Source: Desulfovibrio sp. (GTDB lineage: Bacteria; Desulfobacterota; Desulfovibrionia; Desulfovibrionales; Desulfovibrionaceae). From it: DNA of 64,000 nt. The DNA lies in the NCBI GenBank assembly GCA_017415765.1, contig JAFQED010000017.1, positions 47,958 through 111,957 of the forward strand. Direction: 5' to 3'. Position 1 is the first letter of the stretch. Each line of letters opens with the position of its first letter. Both the position numbers and the translations under genes were made by a program. Below the pieces are notes generated by a model. It was not told the DNA's origin and made no database searches. It was given only the letters and a program-made list of their open reading frames with translations. This document shows, in pieces, positions 8,532 through 63,585 of this stretch.

Positions 8532-8703
8532 TTTTTTGATTGAAACACTCCGTGTTTCAATCCATACGCTGCCTACGCTTCGCGGAAAAAACGCGGTTTT
8601 TCCGCTTGCTTACGGCACGGGCGTCCGCTTTGCGTCCGCCAGAGCGATGCCATTTTCCATGGCATTTCGCTCTAGAGCGACTGCCATTGGAAATGGCACT
8701 CTA
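8532..8703. repeat. Intergenic palindromic repeat, copy 1
   Basis: The 345-base gap between two convergent genes is filled by a compound palindromic element. It opens with a T run and a perfect hairpin (GATTGAAACA ... TGTTTCAATC), continues with a GCGGAAAAA/TTTTTCCGC hairpin and ends with AGAGCGA..GCCAT../..ATGGC..TCGCTCT arms, then one extra arm (8675-8703). Its first 50 bases match positions 37430-37479 at 49 of 50, and its AGAGCGA arms recur at 37596-37630. No protein is encoded. It resembles a REP- or MITE-like family and may act as a bidirectional terminator. Positions 8356-8531 hold nothing recognisable. Confidence 0.75.
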
Positions 8704-9291
8704 TTTGCCGGCCTGAGCACGAAGGCGCAGACCTTCCTCTGCCAGTGCCTTCATTTGTGGGTCATCAGGCTGGAGTTTCAAGCCGTTGCGCAGATGCCCC
8801 AGGGCGCGCACATACTCCCCGGCGTCCAGCAAGGCTCTGGCTATCATGCTGTAGGCGGCATACTCCGTGCGGCAGTGTGTAAGGGCCTCCGTGAAACAGT
8901 CATCAGCCTCGGAAGCGCGTTTCTGCTCCAGCAGGTGCTTGCCCTCCCGAATGGCACGGTCAAGCCGCAGCTTGCGCTGGAGGGTGGCCTCGTAATCTTC
9001 CTGATCTTCCTGTCCTTGCAGCTTCTTGTACAGCTTGACAAAAAAAATCAGCAGCTCGCGCTCCTTGCCGGGCTGGTAGCTTACCGCTGTCCCACACTCT
9101 TTCTTGTACTGTGGGTCCTTGGTCAGTGCTTCCAGCGCGGTGCGGATGTCCCCGCGCAGGTCACTGGGGGCAGGATGCCCGCCCAGATCCTTGAGGGCTG
9201 TGATGGTCAGGTAAACGGCACGGGGAAAGTCGCGCCGCTGGCAACTGGCCTTGGCGCGGCCCAGGTCTTCGCGTATCTTGCGTATATTCAT
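8701..9291 (-). CDS. TPR-like helical repeat protein, function unknown
   Basis: 196-aa soluble, charged protein. Its C-terminal half has tetratricopeptide-like helix pairs (ASEADDCFTEALTHCRTEYA, then RALLDAGEYVRALGHLRNGL), ending in KALAEEGLRLRAQAGK; the N-terminal half is helical and lysine-rich. Probably a protein-interaction scaffold. Start is the ATG at 9291 (MNIRKIREDLG); the frame stays open far upstream, but that stretch lies antisense to the next gene and does not look coding. Its TAG stop is supplied by the last bases of the intergenic repeat. Confidence 0.7.
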   Translation of the reverse strand: MNIRKIREDLGRAKASCQRRDFPRAVYLTITALKDLGGHPAPSDLRGDIRTALEALTKDPQYKKECGTAVSYQPGKERELLIFFVKLYKKLQGQEDQEDYEATLQRKLRLDRAIREGKHLLEQKRASEADDCFTEALTHCRTEYAAYSMIARALLDAGEYVRALGHLRNGLKLQPDDPQMKALAEEGLRLRAQAGK

Positions 9292-49400: not shown

Positions 49401-50556
49401 TTTCAAGGTCTTCGCGGGCAAAGAGGGAACGGTCAGTGGCACGGATACGCGCACAGTCCCAGTCCGGCCCAAGGCGAGCCAGTTCCCGTGCAAGGTCGGC
49501 CTCGGCGCGGCGGCAATTTTCCTTCTGGCCGGGCAAGGCACCCAAGGCCTGCCGGAAGCCGCTTTTGCGTTCAGCCAGGCGGCGCAGCTGGGGCAGGGAC
49601 TGGAGCAGGGGTAGGTCCACCGTAATGGCCTGATGGCGTTGCCGCAGCCGGGCCAGTTTTTCATTTTGGGCGGCCACCTGCCGTTCACAGGTTTCGCGGG
49701 CTTCCTGCAAGCGGGCCAGTCGGGCCGGGCCGTTTTCGGGAAAGGTGGGGCTGGTGGAGGGGATACGCTCAAGGCTCAAGCCCAGCACGCGCCATTCATC
49801 CCACTGCCGCCAGACGCCAAGGCGGCGTTCCAGCAGACGGCGTTCTTCTTCCAGCGTGCCCTTGTGCTGGCGCAGGGCATTCAGGGCCTCGCGTTTTTCG
49901 GCCAACTCCCTGGCCTTGGCGTCAAAGCCCGCGCATTGCAGGGTCACCTCCTCGATCCTGCTGCGGATCTCCTCCAGTTGGCGCAGGGCCGCGTTCAGAG
50001 GCGGATTGCTGCCATTCCGCCTGAAGATCTCATCGCACTGTCGGTCAAGCAGACGGATAGCCTCGCCCGGCGCACGCAGACCCGGCCCGAAACTCGCGCC
50101 GTAGAGCGCGCTGCGCACCTCATCGGCACTGAGGCTTTCCAGACGCTCCAACTCACTCAGGCTGAAGCCAAAAACATTACAGTATACTTCGCGGCTGATG
50201 CCCTGCATGATTTGCTGCCATAGCTCTGGCGCAAGGGATGTGCCATCGGCGCGGCAAAGGTTGAAGCTACCGCCGCCCGGGCCGGGCCGCCGTGTCAGGT
50301 GGACGGCTTCCTGCCCCGGCAGACGCAGGACAAGGCTGCCCCCGGCCTGTCCGTTGTGGAGCGGAGCAAAACTGCGCCGGGCTTCGCGGCTGCGCGGGGC
50401 AGGGTAACCAGCCAGACAGGAACGCAAAAATTCCAGACAGGTGGATTTGCCCGCCTCGTTGCGCCCCAAAAAGATGGAAAGGCCCGGCGGCAGGTCGTCC
50501 ACCTGCACATCGGACAGGATGCCAAAGCCATCTATGCGGAAGGAGGAAATATACAT
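46465..50556 (-). CDS. YhaN-like AAA ATPase (SbcC/Rad50-type DNA repair)
   Basis: 1363-aa P-loop ATPase with long coiled coils. N-terminus MYISSFRIDGFGILSDVQVD, Walker A FLGRNEAGKST, coiled-coil regions (about 200-620 and 690-1180), a predicted hydrophobic pair (LPLMLLGLILLAGGMAMLGA and a second near 650), and the ABC-type C-terminus LSRGAQEQAYLALRLAYIKS with PIIMDEVLVNFD. Overlaps the nuclease gene by TGATG. Probably forms the YhaN-YhaO complex for DNA end processing. Confidence 0.88.
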   Translation of the reverse strand: MYISSFRIDGFGILSDVQVDDLPPGLSIFLGRNEAGKSTCLEFLRSCLAGYPAPRSREARRSFAPLHNGQAGGSLVLRLPGQEAVHLTRRPGPGGGSFNLCRADGTSLAPELWQQIMQGISREVYCNVFGFSLSELERLESLSADEVRSALYGASFGPGLRAPGEAIRLLDRQCDEIFRRNGSNPPLNAALRQLEEIRSRIEEVTLQCAGFDAKARELAEKREALNALRQHKGTLEEERRLLERRLGVWRQWDEWRVLGLSLERIPSTSPTFPENGPARLARLQEARETCERQVAAQNEKLARLRQRHQAITVDLPLLQSLPQLRRLAERKSGFRQALGALPGQKENCRRAEADLARELARLGPDWDCARIRATDRSLFAREDLEKQAREMSASALAHQAAVDSLAQANRDVELAERDITTARNALALLPAPVAALGDEARDELRHTLARLEDNRRQLPGRERALQNARTAFARAFGPLRLTMPVRPGQAASAEDAEAQGAALDNLLDRQQEALELAGEMQTLLQEAQEASLAVQQAQEQVDAVKRKMDELREAQRSWGGPSRENLDTRTTALRQLRALASSIGTEQDRLRELDERIATEKAPSPVKSLPLMLLGLILLAGGMAMLGAHWFYGINEFALTPTFTVPITLWSGYLVLTCGVAFLAGGVPRSGPEAKQHKLEMEQLRSRRETCALHLAELEEQARQLCLTAEIESADPITLEATEVLLEREREQCFHEERARQDMDALKQEMGLARAQVGMQQGKAHEAEGRVQQTRRRWHELMLSLRVGNVPSPEGAAAFFARAESARMALTGVTTAQAELHSLNEAIEQMENRMCSLPPVAERLAPPPPITPQDEQDAPAAQEDTSVAPQAILPTANSMALTDAVRLVLESCREADAAREQRIKATAALQNHENELARAQTRQGQGVDALRIAEERLANARENWSHCLQGLGLGEELDPETVREGFNYMENCLAAESALERARSEQAQSLAELAALREPLATLLESLGRTPLPGEEGDTGDIDWLQSLDTALSDAEAADRAQAEKTRLAGLMAEEEDGLRAGEAALAEARHNENDLLALAGAQDAEDFLRMAAQREEERSRRQRRADLEDALKLAAGKLPLADFLASFQEEEQDSQEKRHILVQNELEQLQTEEERLAAGVAELDAGVAALSRTDDLSSLRQQEALLLESMERMSRTWARNSLAREILREAKLTFERERQPEVIRQASEIFARITGQRWRGISASLEDSSLAILPQQGEPLAPEALSRGAQEQAYLALRLAYIKSHASHATPLPIIMDEVLVNFDPERAERTARAFASLSEGDDGQTHQLFYFTCQPHMVEILRAAAPGAALYRVEDGKINAG

Positions 50557-57737: not shown

Positions 57738-57751
57738 ATTTTTGCAAAAAT
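57738..57751. promoter_or_regulatory. Perfect 14-bp palindrome, candidate activator site
   Basis: ATTTTTGCAAAAAT is its own reverse complement and lies about 70 bases upstream of the sigma-54 promoter, in the range used by enhancer-binding activators. Assignment to the PrpR_N-type regulator is by position only. Confidence 0.45.
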
Positions 57752-57820
57752 ACATTTCACATCCACGAGGGCATTTAAAAAATATCTGCAATTACAGTAT
57801 GTTATAATACGTTTCTGCAT

Positions 57821-57836
57821 TGGCACATGGCTTGCT
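57821..57836 (+). promoter_or_regulatory. Sigma-54 (RpoN) promoter
   Basis: TGGCAC-N5-TTGCT with GG (57822-57823) and GC (57834-57835) exactly ten bases apart, the -24/-12 consensus. It lies 32 bases before the TSUP gene, within reach of the downstream sigma-54 activator. Confidence 0.9.
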
Positions 57837-57867
57837 TTTAACAGTCAACATCACATTGGAGCAAGCC

Positions 57868-58617
57868 ATGATCATTCTTCTTCTGGCCATCGCCATGCTT
57901 GTTGGTGGCCTCATCGGAACTGTGGGGGTAGGTGGTATTTTACTGATACCTGCCCTGAGCAGCCTTGGAGGCCTAAGTACACATGCAGCTATGGCCACAT
58001 CTCTTTTCAGTTTCATTTTTACCGGTATTCTGGGGACCTGGCTATACTGCAAACATGGCAGTATCTGCTGGGGTATTACCATCCCAGTCTGTATCGGAGG
58101 GCTTATAGGCGGATACCCCGGTGCCCTGGCCAACTCTCTTGCCCCAGCATGGATACTCAATCTCATCCTGGGCTGTATTATTATCTTTGCTGGCATCTAT
58201 GCACTGTTCCCTGCCAAGGGAGGCAGCATTACCTATAAGCCGGGTGACTACAGGCAACGCATACAGCTTCTTCTTATTGGAGCCATTGTAGGTTGTGGCT
58301 CTGGTCTGACAGGCGTTGGTGGCCCCGTGCTTTCCGTCCCCTTCATGGTCATTTTGGGTTTTCCCCCTCTCGTGTCCATAGCTACCAGCCAAGTCATCCA
58401 AATCACAGCTGCCACTTCTGGATCTATCAGCAACTTTACCAATGGTTTTGTTGACCTCCACATGGCTCTGATGGTCACGGTAGCGGAGCTTATTGGTGTT
58501 ATGGCCGGTGTCAGACTGGCCCACAGCATCTCGTCCGGTGTTCTGAAAAAAATAGTTTCCATCGTCTGTATCCTGGTAGGCGGCTTCATCTTTGTCCGCG
58601 CATTGGTGCAGGCCTGA
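57868..58617 (+). CDS. TSUP (TauE/SafE) family anion transporter
   Basis: 249-aa inner-membrane carrier with about eight helices in two repeats: GGLIGTVGVGGILLIPALSS and the mirror GCGSGLTGVGGPVLSVPFMV. Members move sulfite, sulfonates, sulfoacetate, thiosulfate or sulfate. Start is the ATG at 57868 with GGAG seven bases upstream; the open frame to 57820 would begin inside the promoter. First gene of the sigma-54 unit. Confidence 0.88.
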   Translation: MIILLLAIAMLVGGLIGTVGVGGILLIPALSSLGGLSTHAAMATSLFSFIFTGILGTWLYCKHGSICWGITIPVCIGGLIGGYPGALANSLAPAWILNLILGCIIIFAGIYALFPAKGGSITYKPGDYRQRIQLLLIGAIVGCGSGLTGVGGPVLSVPFMVILGFPPLVSIATSQVIQITAATSGSISNFTNGFVDLHMALMVTVAELIGVMAGVRLAHSISSGVLKKIVSIVCILVGGFIFVRALVQA

Positions 58618-58646
58618 AAACTACAACCCTAAATAAGGAGATTCCC

Positions 58647-59801
58647 ATGCCTCTCAATCTCGAAGAACGTCCTATTTTCATGATTGGAGCCGAACGCTCC
58701 GGGACAACCCTGGTGATGGCCTTGCTGGGCTGCCATTCCCGTATCGCTGTACCCGAGGTGGTCTGGTACTATCCCCGCTTTTATCCCTACCTGCATACCT
58801 ATGGTGACCTTTCCATCGAAGCCAACTTCCGAACCTTGGCCCAGGAAATGGTCTTTGGACTCAAGACACCATTCTGGGGGATGCAGGTCAACCCCCGTAC
58901 CATTGTTGATGAAGTTATTGAGCTGGCCCCTGAGCGCAGCTTTGCCGGCCTGTACGCGGGTATGCATCTGCGCTTTGCCCAATATGTAAATAAACCTCGT
59001 TGGGGAGAAAAAACACCGCATAACCTCTATTTCGTTGGCCCCATGCATAACGATTTCCCCAATGCCCAGTTTATTTACATTACCCGCGATGGCCGTGATG
59101 CCAGCGTAGATTATATGGAATCCTCCTTCGGCCCCACCAACATCTATTGTGCCGCCGATTCCTGGAAACGCTGCTGGAACGCAGTCAAGGAGTGGCGTGA
59201 ACCCCTGCGCGAAAAAGGCCTGTGGCTGGACGTACGTTATGAAGAACTGGTGCGTGAGCCGGAAAAAGTCATGCGCGGTGTTTGCGAATTCCTGAACGAA
59301 GACTTTGAAGAAGGCATATTTGAATTCTACAAGACTGATATGTGCAAAGCCCGAGGTGCATCACGTGATCATGCCCCACTGGGTAAACCAATCAGTGATA
59401 AGTATATCGGCATCCACAAGGATCTTCTCTCCCTACGTGACCAGCGTATCTTTGCCGCTGTGGCTGGCAAAGAACTGGAAGAAGCCGGTTATGTCAATAC
59501 TGTTGAGCCTGAAATGCCCAGCCAACTCATGATTAACAAATATATTGAATTTGATGGGCGCGTCCGTGCTGCCACATTGGATGGTTTTGAAGGTCATATA
59601 GTTTATGAAAGCTATAATGACTGGCTTATTGACCAACGTGAAGAACGCCGCAAAAAGGGATTATGGAGCCCAGATACAGCTCCAAAGATTTTCCCTACTG
59701 GTGACCAAAACGAAGAATATATTATTGGACAGCGCGCGTCTGACAAATGGAAAAAACATTTTTCCGTCAAAAGGCGTTACGTTGGAGATGTTGTGCTTTA
59801 G
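58647..59801 (+). CDS. Sulfotransferase-family protein
   Basis: 384 aa, cytoplasmic. The 5'-phosphosulfate loop reads IGAERSGTTLVMALLGCHSR (RSGTT about 17-21), WGEKTP at 119-124, and the 3'-phosphate region YITRDGRDASVDYMESS (RDGRDAS at 147-153). This is the PAPS sulfotransferase layout. AAGGAG precedes the ATG, 29 bases after the TSUP gene. Acceptor unknown. Noticeably AT-richer codons than most of the window. Between an anion exporter-like and an anion importer-like gene, it may handle an organic sulfate, in either direction. Confidence 0.85.
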   Translation: MPLNLEERPIFMIGAERSGTTLVMALLGCHSRIAVPEVVWYYPRFYPYLHTYGDLSIEANFRTLAQEMVFGLKTPFWGMQVNPRTIVDEVIELAPERSFAGLYAGMHLRFAQYVNKPRWGEKTPHNLYFVGPMHNDFPNAQFIYITRDGRDASVDYMESSFGPTNIYCAADSWKRCWNAVKEWREPLREKGLWLDVRYEELVREPEKVMRGVCEFLNEDFEEGIFEFYKTDMCKARGASRDHAPLGKPISDKYIGIHKDLLSLRDQRIFAAVAGKELEEAGYVNTVEPEMPSQLMINKYIEFDGRVRAATLDGFEGHIVYESYNDWLIDQREERRKKGLWSPDTAPKIFPTGDQNEEYIIGQRASDKWKKHFSVKRRYVGDVVL

Positions 59802-59887
59802 ACCGTCCAGGTATTCATAAGCCCCCGCAGTCTGATCTGATACATAAAGGGTGGGCCGCAAGGTCCACCATAAAACTGGAGGCCTCT

Positions 59888-61366
59888 ATGTCTGAATCTC
59901 TCTCCCCCTCCCGCGTGCTGTGCTTTCTGGGAGGCCCTGCCCTGCTGCTGTTGGCCCTGGCTCTGCCCCTTTTTGGTCCTCTGGAGTCCCGCTTTGGTTT
60001 CGGCATCCTGTTCTGGATGGTCTGGTGGTGGATTACCTGCATCGTGGATATCAAGCTGACCTGCCTGGTACCCATCTTTGTCGCCTGTGTGTACAGTTAT
60101 ATGCCCTTGGGCAAGGTTCTTGAAGCCTATGTACACCGTGAAGCTGTCCTTATTTTCGGAGCCACGGCCATTACCTGTGCATGGGTTCGCTGGGGATTTG
60201 CCCGTCGGCTGGCACTGAATTTTCTTATGCGTGTCAACGGCAGTGTACGTGCCCAGACCGCTGGATGGTTTCTCCTTTGCGGGGCGACATCGTTTGTTGT
60301 AGGCAACACTACTGTAGCAGCCATGTTTGCCCCTGTAGCTGTAGCTTCTCTCATGTATGCCGGTTTCCACAGCAATGAACAGCGCTGGCACTCCAAGGCA
60401 GCCTCAAATATCCTCATTGCTGTGGCCTGGGGGGCCAGCGTAGGCGGTATGGCTACGCCCCTGGGAGGCGGTCAATCTGTGGTAACCTACGGATTACTCA
60501 ACAAATATCTGGGATACGATATTTACTTTATCGACTGGACTCTCCGCATGATTCCCCTCTCCCTGCTGATTATGGCAGGTGTGGCTATCATAATGTACTT
60601 TATGCGCACGGATATGGAAAGATTCAGCGGCAGCAAGGAGTTTTATCGCCAAGAGCTGGAAAAACTTGGCCCTATGACGTATGAGGAAAAGATTTCCTTC
60701 TACGGTTTCGCTCTGGCTATTCTTCTTGCCGTCTGCCAGCCCCTTTATGCTCCTTATACCAAGGGACCCCAGTGGGCCTGGCTCAAACCCACCCAAATGT
60801 TCTGCATCATTCCCCTGCTGTTGCTGTTCTGGCCCTCCCGTCAGGTTAAGGGCGAGAGCATCCTGTCCGGCAAAACCATGAAGGAGTATTTTCCCATCAC
60901 CATCCTTTTCATGTGGCCTGCTTCAGTCGCCCTGAGTAAAATACTGGGTGCCACGGGGGCCGGGGCCGTGTTTGGCCAGTGGCTTGCTCCCTTCATGGGC
61001 GGCAGCGATACCCTGTCCATTGTCGCCTGGTCATTAGTTCCCAATATCCTGTCCCAGGTAACCAGCGACACTGCTGCCGCCGGCGTCATGGTTCCTCTGG
61101 CCATCGAAGCCATGTCCAACTGGCGTGGGTTGCCTTTTGGTGCCGTTCCCTGGGTTTGGATCACCGGTTCTGCCATCAGCTGGTCCTATGCCGTGGCTTC
61201 TGCAACGGGTGCCCAAGGTATTGCGGCCGGTTACGGGGCCAATCTGCGAACTATGTTTGTATGGGGTCTGATTGCGGCCTTCATTTCCGTCCTACTGACT
61301 GTACTCTACTTCTGGGTGACTGTGGTTATCCTGGGCCTGGATTTCTACATTATGCCTCCGGCATAA
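59888..61366 (+). CDS. SLC13/DASS family anion transporter
   Basis: 492-aa membrane protein with about eleven helices. The two DASS SNT-type motifs are seen as GATSFVVGNTTVAAMFAPVA and ILSQVTSDTAAAGVMVPLAI. Family members carry sulfate, thiosulfate or dicarboxylates with sodium. GGAGG precedes the ATG at 59888. Third gene of the sigma-54 unit, 86 bases after the sulfotransferase. Confidence 0.9.
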   Translation: MSESLSPSRVLCFLGGPALLLLALALPLFGPLESRFGFGILFWMVWWWITCIVDIKLTCLVPIFVACVYSYMPLGKVLEAYVHREAVLIFGATAITCAWVRWGFARRLALNFLMRVNGSVRAQTAGWFLLCGATSFVVGNTTVAAMFAPVAVASLMYAGFHSNEQRWHSKAASNILIAVAWGASVGGMATPLGGGQSVVTYGLLNKYLGYDIYFIDWTLRMIPLSLLIMAGVAIIMYFMRTDMERFSGSKEFYRQELEKLGPMTYEEKISFYGFALAILLAVCQPLYAPYTKGPQWAWLKPTQMFCIIPLLLLFWPSRQVKGESILSGKTMKEYFPITILFMWPASVALSKILGATGAGAVFGQWLAPFMGGSDTLSIVAWSLVPNILSQVTSDTAAAGVMVPLAIEAMSNWRGLPFGAVPWVWITGSAISWSYAVASATGAQGIAAGYGANLRTMFVWGLIAAFISVLLTVLYFWVTVVILGLDFYIMPPA

Positions 61367-61445
61367 CCAACGTATAATTATTGGCCGAGAAAAGAAGCAT
61401 CCTCCATCCTTCGGTAGCCAAATCCTCCTACCCTACTCGGCCCCT

Positions 61446-61480
61446 CCCGGGACTGCCGCACACAGCGTCAGTCCCGGGTT
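61446..61480 (+). terminator. Terminator-like hairpin after the SLC13 gene
   Basis: CCCGGGACTG (61446-61455) pairs perfectly with CAGTCCCGGG (61469-61478) around a 13-base loop; only a short T pair follows, so termination may be leaky. The rest of 61367-61671 holds no gene; it should contain the activator promoter, which I cannot assign. Confidence 0.55.
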
Positions 61481-61671
61481 CATATATGGAAGGCAAGGAT
61501 TCTTAAGCTCACCGAAGAGAGGATAAACACCTGAAAATCAGGTAATCAAAACCATATGATACATAACAAATATCACACTCCTTGCCACAGCCCCCCCTTG
61601 TTTGCTATCTTCATATTTTTGATGCCAATCTCGGCATCCCATATCGCACAACTGATCGGATAAGAAGCTCC

Positions 61672-63585
61672 ATGCACTCCTCTTCCTTTTCTTTTGCCTT
61701 TGTTTCCAATTCTATCGTAGTCGCAGAAAAAGTTCAGTCTTATGCCAGAGAACATGGGTGGCCACTGACAGAAGTACGCCTGAGTACAATGGAAGACGCC
61801 CTGCCTGTGGCCAGACAACTATTCAAGCAAGGCGTAGATGTCATTCTGGGGGGTGGAGGTACCGGCAAGCTTCTCCGGCGACATCTGAAGGAGCCAATTG
61901 TCACCATTTCCCGAAGCCATATGTCCATTCTACAGGCTCTGATACAAGCCCGTGAATATACGGATAACATCGCTGTTACCTGCTATGACGCCATCCCACC
62001 TTGGACAGAACTCTTTTCCAGCCTATTACACATCCACCTTCATCCTATCCGCTTTACCAACTCACAGGAGCTGACCTTGGGTATAACCCAAGCCATTGCC
62101 CAGGGTGCAGGCTGTATCGTTGGAGGTGGTATATGTGTCTCTATTGCTCAAACTCACCTCTGTCGTGGCATAGTGATTTGCCCAGAAAATGAGGCTTTAG
62201 AACGGGCCTTTGAAGAAGCCCTCAATATCGCCTCGGCACGACGCCGGGATCGCGAGCACGCCGTCTGGCTGCAGGATGTGGTCGATGCCCTGCACGAAGG
62301 GGTCGTTGGTGTCGATCCTTCTGGCAAGCTTGCCATTTGTAATTCGGTGGCCAGGCAAGCTCTCGGGCAAAAACGTCTTCAGGACGGCTGGGCACTGCAA
62401 CATCTCGGCCTTGAGAAAAGCCTGCAAAGCGGAAACCTCACAGAAGGTACTGTAAAGGGGGAAAACGGGCAGGATCTCGTCTTTACCAGCAATGCCGTTG
62501 TTGTTGATGGTATCAAAAAGGGTGCACTGAGTGTTCTGACTCCCGATGTTGTCCTTACAGACCTGCATCGAAGGCTGAAGTATTCCCGCCAGGTAGGACT
62601 GAAGGCTCGATTCACTCTAAAGAACCTGCTGGGCGAAAGTCCCACCATGCAAACATTACGGATACATGCACAGCGTTTTGCAGAATCCGATGCAGGCATA
62701 TACATTCATGGGGAATCAGGAACAGGCAAGGAAGTTTTGGCACACGCCATCCATAACGCCAGCACCAGACGCCATGCTGCCTTTGTAGCAGTCAACTGCG
62801 GGGCTCTGCCAGAAAGCCTTCTGGAAAGTGAACTCTTTGGCTACACAGAAGGGGCCTTTACAGGTGCCCGGCGTGGGGGGAAACAAGGACTGTTTGAACT
62901 GGCGCAGGACGGTACTATTTTTTTGGATGAAATAGCAGACATCAGTGCTGCCGTGCAAGTCAGGCTTTTGCGTGTTCTGGAAAGCGGTGAGATATTCCGC
63001 CTTGGCGGAGACAGGCCGGTGACCGTCAATACTCGCGTTATCTGTTCTTCCTGGAAAGATCTCGTGCGCGAAGTGCGGGAGGGGCGTTTTAGGGCAGACC
63101 TGTACTACCGCCTGACCCTCTTGCGATTAGAGATACCCCCTCTGCGGGATCGCCTACAGGATATCCCTCTTCTAGCCCATCACCTGCTGCGGCGGATGGG
63201 TATGGCGCACAAAGACATAAATTCAGAAGGCATCGAACTTCTCTGCAGCTACCCTTGGCCGGGTAACATTCGCGAATTGGACGCGTTGTTGCGCCGCTAT
63301 AGCCTGATGTCCACCAGTGATACCTGTCAAATCTCCTTGCTGCAAGATCTTTTGCTCGATATGCGGCAGACCCAAGGCCCCCTTGCACTCTCCGCTGCTC
63401 CACAGGAAATGCAGACAGAACAGCGTATTCCTGATACAGGCAGCTTGCGCCAGCGCTTACGCCAGACGGAAAAACAGATTATCCGCCAAGAGCTGGCTCG
63501 TCAGCAGTATAGCAAAAAAAGGACGGCCCAATCTTTAGGCATCAGCCTCAATACCCTCTGGCGCAAGATGTACGACATCGACTGA
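61672..63585 (+). CDS. Sigma-54-dependent activator with PrpR_N sensor domain
   Basis: 637-aa enhancer-binding protein. Residues 1-190: PrpR_N (propionate catabolism activator) fold, with [20 protein letters not shown] and [12 protein letters not shown]. Residues about 195-300: PAS-like. Residues 320-555: AAA+ domain with Walker A GESGTGKE (347-354), GAFTGA (394-399) that contacts sigma-54, and Walker B GTIFLDE. Residues about 600-637: Fis-type HTH ([20 protein letters not shown]). Start ATG 61672; weak Shine-Dalgarno. Likely activates the promoter at 57821. Ligand unknown. Confidence 0.92.

Follow-up and report, generated by a model that had tools for sequence, protein, structure and literature searches.

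The four genes analysed here, which encode a TSUP transporter, a sulfotransferase-fold protein (SULT), a DASS-family transporter and a sigma-54 activator with a PrpR_N sensor, are, judging from gene content over related genomes, a dedicated unit, and on the same evidence the set is common to some sulfate reducers, including the human gut species Desulfovibrio piger. We read it tentatively as an inducible unit for one anionic compound, which may be linked to APS/AMP and may work by preference in the catabolic direction, a reading that, taken whole, has in our estimate a modest chance of being correct.

The window, i.e. the whole stretch of 64,000 nucleotides that was analysed, comes from a draft genome (G000) of 2.10 Mb in 74 contigs, with a completeness of 91%. 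This genome is close to D. piger: the SULT proteins of the window and of D. piger PG-251-APC-1 share 94% identity. The four gene assignments had been made in an initial annotation and were borne out: all genes are open on the + strand at the positions listed in Table 1, and all four products score above the Pfam gathering cut-offs. The activator consists of a PrpR_N sensor, an AAA+ domain with GAFTGA in the translation and a Fis-type HTH. Genes for NAD synthase, UbiD and a NUDIX protein lie upstream of the cassette on the opposite strand. The G+C content of the cassette genes is low (49-55% vs 60% for the window), thus the cassette was possibly acquired.

Table 1. Positions of the cassette genes and of the associated elements in the window.
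Feature	Position	Strand	Score or description
RpoN-type promoter element TTGGCACATGGCTTGCT	57820..57836	+	near consensus; GC element about 32 nt 5' of the TSUP ATG
TSUP (TauE/SafE) transporter, 249 aa	57868..58617	+	PF01925 131 bits, cut-off 32.6
SULT, sulfotransferase-fold protein, 384 aa	58647..59801	+	PF13469 (Sulfotransfer_3) 111.1 bits; PF00685 49.8 bits
DASS-family transporter, window type 'DASS1', 492 aa	59888..61366	+	PF00939 (Na_sulph_symp) 75.6 bits, cut-off 27
Strong RNA hairpin between DASS and activator	61367..61560	+	z -4.49 vs 200 shuffles
Sigma-54 activator, 637 aa	61672..63585	+	PF06506 (PrpR_N) 109.9 bits; PF00158 (Sigma54_activat) 213.4 bits; PF02954 38.5 bits

A pattern-based scan over 84,980 species genomes yielded 12 loci from close relatives, and SULT matches at E 1e-20 or better were found in 26 of the 288 genomes of the family; with the distant L052-L054 set aside, 23 SULT genomes were retained, 22 with the window type and one (G165) with a sister type. 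Gene content was compared over 22 loci in 22 genomes (the window, L002-L012 and L041-L050), among which SULT is 69-94% and the activator 42-84% identical to the window protein. TSUP and some DASS are present in all 22 loci, the DASS being DASS1 in 20, one of which (L012) is truncated where the contig stops, and of a different type in L046 and L047, whose proteins share 92% identity with one another and 46-47% with a DASS passing TIGR00785; the activator is present in 21, the contig of L012 stopping before its position. The order of the genes varies: activator and DASS are divergent in L005 and L008, L007 starts with DASS, L049 and L050 show the order SULT-DASS-TSUP-activator, and in L010 four dms-type genes are inserted between DASS and activator. 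Moreover, a DASS1 search at E below 1e-240 matched 19 of the 288 family genomes, and SULT is present in all 19. The unit thus persists although its genes are rearranged and its DASS can be exchanged for another type, and this constant membership despite reshuffling is strong evidence for a joint function, which, together with the confinement of DASS1 to SULT genomes, argues for a dedicated unit and rules out a chance neighbourhood. The search for the same genes elsewhere, proposed with the initial annotation, thus found the set again in other genomes, in varying order.

Two loci deserve a separate mention. At L010:5894-10564 the inserted genes (dmsB, dmsC, dmsA and a dmsD-like gene) lie on the same strand, an arrangement that looks as though the activator also controls a DMSO/S-oxide-type reductase. 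At L013:1017-1697 (G087) the SULT frame is short, which points to a damaged copy or a misassembly.

An RpoN-type promoter had also been claimed for the cassette, and a near-consensus -24/-12 site is indeed found before TSUP. Taken alone, this site is not beyond chance in the window, where the pattern TGGCACN5TTGC has 3 exact matches, the other two at 8694-8708 (+) and 50231-50245 (-), and 13 matches with at most one mismatch vs 10.4 expected; the weight of the argument comes instead from its recurrence across loci. Using a hand-weighted score (maximum 26) over the 300 nt 5' of the first cassette gene, and a threshold of at least 22.5 that about 1.4% of random 300-nt stretches reach, a site was found in 17 of 20 loci of the window's SULT type (L006 and L011, which start too close to a contig end, were left out of the count). 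In 16 of these 17 loci it sits 22-37 nt 5' of the start codon. The score remained below 22.5 in these 300 nt at L007, L008 and L010, and none of four sister-type SULT loci reached the threshold.

The activator had been described as following the unit. Its own activator does adjoin the cassette, with the correction that DASS and activator are separated by a gap of 305 nt and a strong hairpin, from which we suggest that the activator may be transcribed separately from TSUP-SULT-DASS. A terminator scan did not include this hairpin among its terminators.

Several lines of evidence concern the nucleotide used by SULT. In mouse SULT1E1, according to passages of PMC4199319 and PMC10889563, Arg130 and Ser138 contact the 3'-phosphate of PAP. 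Of this PAPS-type pair, i.e. an Arg and a Ser at R+8, the window SULT retains the Arg (R147) and has an Asp (D155) where known sulfotransferases have Ser. The loop for the 5'-phosphosulfate (P-loop, ERSGTT) is intact, and its residues E-R-S-G-T-T are invariant in both SULT alignments. D155 is present in all 22 cassette SULTs, as compared with 46 Ser and 2 Gly among 48 other PF13469 domains placed by HMM alignment, which come from 47/48 other loci and are part of a longer list of PF13469 matches. The sister clade has Thr at this site in 4/4 proteins (L051, L159, L160 and L161), the fifth relative, L162, being cut before the nucleotide site and hence outside this count. In the SULT tree the D155 group separates from the sister group with a support of 100/99, and a fork holding only D155 rows has 92/96. 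The HMMER alignment with TPST1 has a one-residue gap in the motif, which makes the exact TPST partner of D155 ambiguous, and an AlphaFold model of SULT built from 12 close rows reached a mean pLDDT of 46, too low to be informative.

The label 'PAPS-type' that SULT had received fits the P-loop and R147, but is made doubtful by the replacement of Ser by an invariant Asp and by the 9 of 23 genomes in which an APS kinase was not detectable. A degenerate PAPS site had been named beforehand as an argument against the initial reading; the site is degenerate in part, yet the change is conserved, which suggests a changed nucleotide more than a dead enzyme. Asp is the residue that discriminates NAD from NADP sites and, by analogy, Asp155 would accommodate a ribose whose 3'-hydroxyl is free, whereas a 3'-phosphate would be repelled. 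The PAPS dependence of SULT is thus doubtful, and for the window's clade the nucleotide is, by a narrow preference, probably APS/AMP.

The distribution of APS kinase bears on the same question. The kinase (PF01583) was detected at E 1e-10 or better in 198 of the 288 family genomes, and was missing at this threshold from nine SULT genomes (G041, G052, G053, G095, G096, G104, G171, G172 and G173), of which seven are at least 99% complete, with G053 and G096 being single contigs, while G104 and G173 are 76-77% complete. A looser PF01583 search gave partial matches in all nine (best E 1.5e-4 to 7e-3), those of eight passing the low Pfam cut-off of 21.1 bits; in the six of the nine whose best frame was scanned, it codes not for an APS kinase but for a cobyrinate synthase-CPT fusion (L068, L069, L075), SRP54 (L073, L074) or 6-phosphofructo-2-kinase/6PF2K (L076). 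The remaining 14 SULT genomes have an APS kinase or a homologue, strong in five and divergent in nine, i.e. the window's genome (113 bits, with 149 of 152 positions covered) and eight others; one such divergent protein is encoded at L014:1361-1795.

By contrast, the kinase is found at E 1e-10 in all 73 genomes that have other PF13469 proteins and no SULT (strong in 67) and, with the 6 SULT genomes holding a second PF13469 protein added, in 79/79 genomes with another PF13469 sulfotransferase, vs 8/17 genomes with SULT alone and 111/192 without any PF13469 protein. Since 'alone' here means no second PF13469 match at E 1e-6, families recognised only by PF00685, for instance, are outside this count. 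Genomes with SULT alone therefore resemble those without a PAPS user, and the several SULT genomes lacking the kinase suggest that SULT may use APS in place of PAPS. On the other hand, the absences fall within about three lineages, that is, few independent events, so that the association is less strong than the p values (6e-7 and 2e-8) imply and the argument for APS/AMP is weakened. The Thr-type sister clade has an APS kinase in 4/4 genomes.

The retained R147 and the 14 genomes with a divergent or strong kinase-like protein count against APS/AMP and, together with the intact P-loop, agree with a conventional PAPS sulfotransferase in which Asp155 makes no difference or is compensated, PAPS being supplied by divergent or unrecognised kinases. 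To our knowledge, all close SULT relatives of known function are PAPS users. We nevertheless regard this explanation as unlikely, given the invariance of D155 and the nine genomes without a kinase homologue, most of them nearly complete.

For the APS/AMP reading, a link to APS metabolism is suggested by the aprA matches of the SULT genomes and by the neighbours of SULT relatives. The aprA model was matched by all 27 SULT genomes tested, 25 of them above the cut-off, the two below it (G104 and G239) having gene fragments. Beyond the family, four more genomes out of 395 of the phylum have a near SULT relative (G333, G368, G431 and G658), each with a strong APS kinase. In G333 and G368, which belong to one genus (loci L159/L160), a DASS and a PhnD-like binding protein are encoded in the locus of the SULT relative. 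The locus also codes for an AprA-like flavoprotein, which at 610 bits exceeds the NF005331 cut-off of 557, and for an AprB-like ferredoxin, which at 95.6 bits stays under its cut-off of 135.65; Crp-like regulators, recognised by eye, are present as well, as are one gene resembling HdrA and one weakly resembling QmoC. The presence of SULT and DASS beside an AprA-like/AprB-like pair speaks for APS/AMP; against it, these neighbours were found in two genomes that belong to the same genus and carry a Thr-type SULT. Among solved structures, the AprA-like protein is closest to the Methanothermococcus thermolithotrophicus PAPS reductase (531 bits, compared with 364 for the A. fulgidus APS reductase). 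An AprAB-like paralogue occurs in 13/23 SULT genomes and in 65/288 overall (Fisher p 2e-4, kinship uncorrected); the association is suggestive only and, with the paralogue missing in 10 SULT genomes, we discarded it as an obligatory partner of SULT.

Related gene groups were also observed. A module of DASS, AprA-like and AprB-like genes, often with a Crp-like regulator, recurs in L204, L206, L208, L159 and L160, and could serve as another system for anions resembling sulfate. At L162:1383-6468 two TSUP genes lie beside the cut SULT relative and a DASS, presenting the SULT-DASS-TSUP theme in another family. Finally, paralogous sets at L194:224-8675 and L198:5016-12613 comprise a DASS relative (33%) adjoined by a small conserved protein, a flavoprotein (NF006131, above cut-off) and a PrpR_N activator (42%).

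In these last two loci the nearest DASS and PrpR_N paralogues thus adjoin a fumarate-reductase-like flavoprotein, and this, with the chance that Asp155 might spoil PAPS binding, would fit a SULT that no longer transfers sulfuryl groups and binds another ligand, in a unit for carboxylate uptake or sensing whose link to sulfur is accidental. It is the least probable of the explanations considered, as SULT is highly conserved over its full length with an intact P-loop, has a TSUP partner and occurs in genomes matching aprA in every case tested.

Returning to the APS/AMP reading, the mechanism that we propose would start with the PrpR_N activator, which would sense a small ligand and switch on TSUP-SULT-DASS from the RpoN promoter. 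DASS would import the compound, probably a carboxylate bearing, or able to take, a sulfate group; SULT would shuttle the sulfuryl group between the compound and an adenine nucleotide, in the window's clade most likely APS/AMP and not PAPS/PAP; and TSUP would release the product or sulfite from the cell. The transport roles and the ligand are those that we infer. In the preferred direction, organosulfate + AMP would give APS + alcohol or phenol, and the APS formed would feed into dissimilatory sulfate reduction, sparing the ATP that ATP sulfurylase consumes. With APS/AMP as the nucleotide, we lean slightly towards this catabolic direction, which accounts for the dedicated importer, for the aprA match of all SULT genomes tested and for the AprAB-like neighbours in the sister clade. 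In its most specific form, in which SULT would convert imported organosulfates, e.g. phenolic-acid sulfates, to APS without ATP and so feed sulfate respiration, it is a doubtful proposal. On energetic grounds, the charging of AMP would be restricted to activated sulfates, for example aryl sulfates; alkyl sulfates, which would be incapable of it, count against the catabolic direction, as do the exporters in the TSUP family, better suited to the forward reaction. Phenolic-acid sulfates, our guess for the substrate, are also dianions suited to DASS. An organic sulfate or sulfonate had been suggested at the outset: an organic sulfur oxyanion fits the gene set, a sulfonate being just one option.

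In the forward direction, SULT would use APS to sulfate an imported or internal acceptor, and TSUP would export the organosulfate for detoxification, signalling or competition. We consider this nearly as likely as the catabolic direction, i.e. possible rather than probable. It shares the nucleotide evidence (D155 and the missing APS kinases), and agrees with the TSUP exporter kept in all 22 loci and with the known chemistry of the fold: forward transfer is its known direction, the transfer potential of APS is high and, as far as we know, the known enzymes of the sulfotransferase fold run from PAPS to product. Conversely, it would consume activated sulfate in competition with APS reductase, it would be odd to dedicate an importer to a compound merely sulfated and then exported, and the AprAB-like neighbours in L159/L160 speak against it.

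Sulfate reducers spend two ATP equivalents per sulfate activated. If APS were obtained from organic sulfates, this cost would be bypassed and an extra electron-acceptor niche would be available to gut Desulfovibrio. If the reaction were instead forward, SULT would be an APS-dependent O-sulfotransferase, of which we know of none elsewhere, and a microbial source of gut organosulfates.

Among known systems, the individual components have relatives from which they differ. SULT shares family, P-loop and Arg with the PAPS-dependent sulfotransferases (Sulfotransfer_3/Sulfotransfer_1; solved TPST1, TPST2 and CurM sulfotransferase), and TPST1 is its best structure-database match (E 1e-7 with the single sequence, 4.5e-15 with a profile). 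It differs from the PAPS-dependent sulfotransferases by Asp in place of Ser at R+8, by a C-terminal part (about residues 240-384) outside the matches with the solved enzymes and by its occurrence in some genomes without APS kinase. The window DASS shares PF00939 with the SLC13-like carriers of sulfate and di-/tricarboxylates and weakly matches solved SLC13 and NadC-type structures, but fails the NCBIfam subfamily TIGR00785 (94.7 bits vs a cut-off of 198.6); it carries GNT and SDT at the positions of the SNT motifs, which we take to be the family signature. Since DASS proteins also carry di-/tricarboxylates, the claim that all three families handle sulfur oxyanions was too strong. The activator has the PrpR_N sensor, AAA+ and Fis-type HTH of PrpR, the activator of propionate catabolism; it falls below the equivalog cut-off (TIGR02329, 399.5 vs 499.2 bits) and no propionate genes adjoin it. 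In the L159/L160 AprA-like protein, Gly-Trp-Asp replaces the Lys120-Arg121-Ser122 that a part of PMC10322725 proposes for PAPS in the FAD-type PAPS reductase of M. thermolithotrophicus, and no such gene is present at the window's locus.

Two candidate links were rejected. The glycyl-radical enzyme upstream in L012 (L012:3328-8563; 823 aa), which is accompanied by an activase and a sigma-54 activator, falls short of every NCBIfam equivalog cut-off and its best match is not the solved isethionate lyase, which removes the link to isethionate lyase. As for andrographolide C-sulfonation by D. piger, the relevant part of the paper credits APS reductase and bisulfite, not a sulfotransferase.

The initial annotation knew of no described system with this set. 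No title or abstract listed by one open-access library on a Desulfovibrio sulfotransferase or an APS donor describes the set. A part of PMC5840216 considers DASS and TSUP proteins as carriers of sulfate in sulfate reducers; the paper makes no mention of 'sulfotransferase'. The word is likewise absent from PMC4641369, whose section 7, as far as it extends to such operons, describes no DASS/SULT set. Within the parts of these sources covered, the claim may hold for the set as a whole, but not for its TSUP/sigma-54 portion, which has a precedent in D. vulgaris: there, a part of PMC4641369 reports nine sigma-54 operons encoding TSUP or PSE transporters, and the feature common to them and to the unit described here is a TSUP gene that is preceded by an RpoN-type promoter and has an activator of its own.
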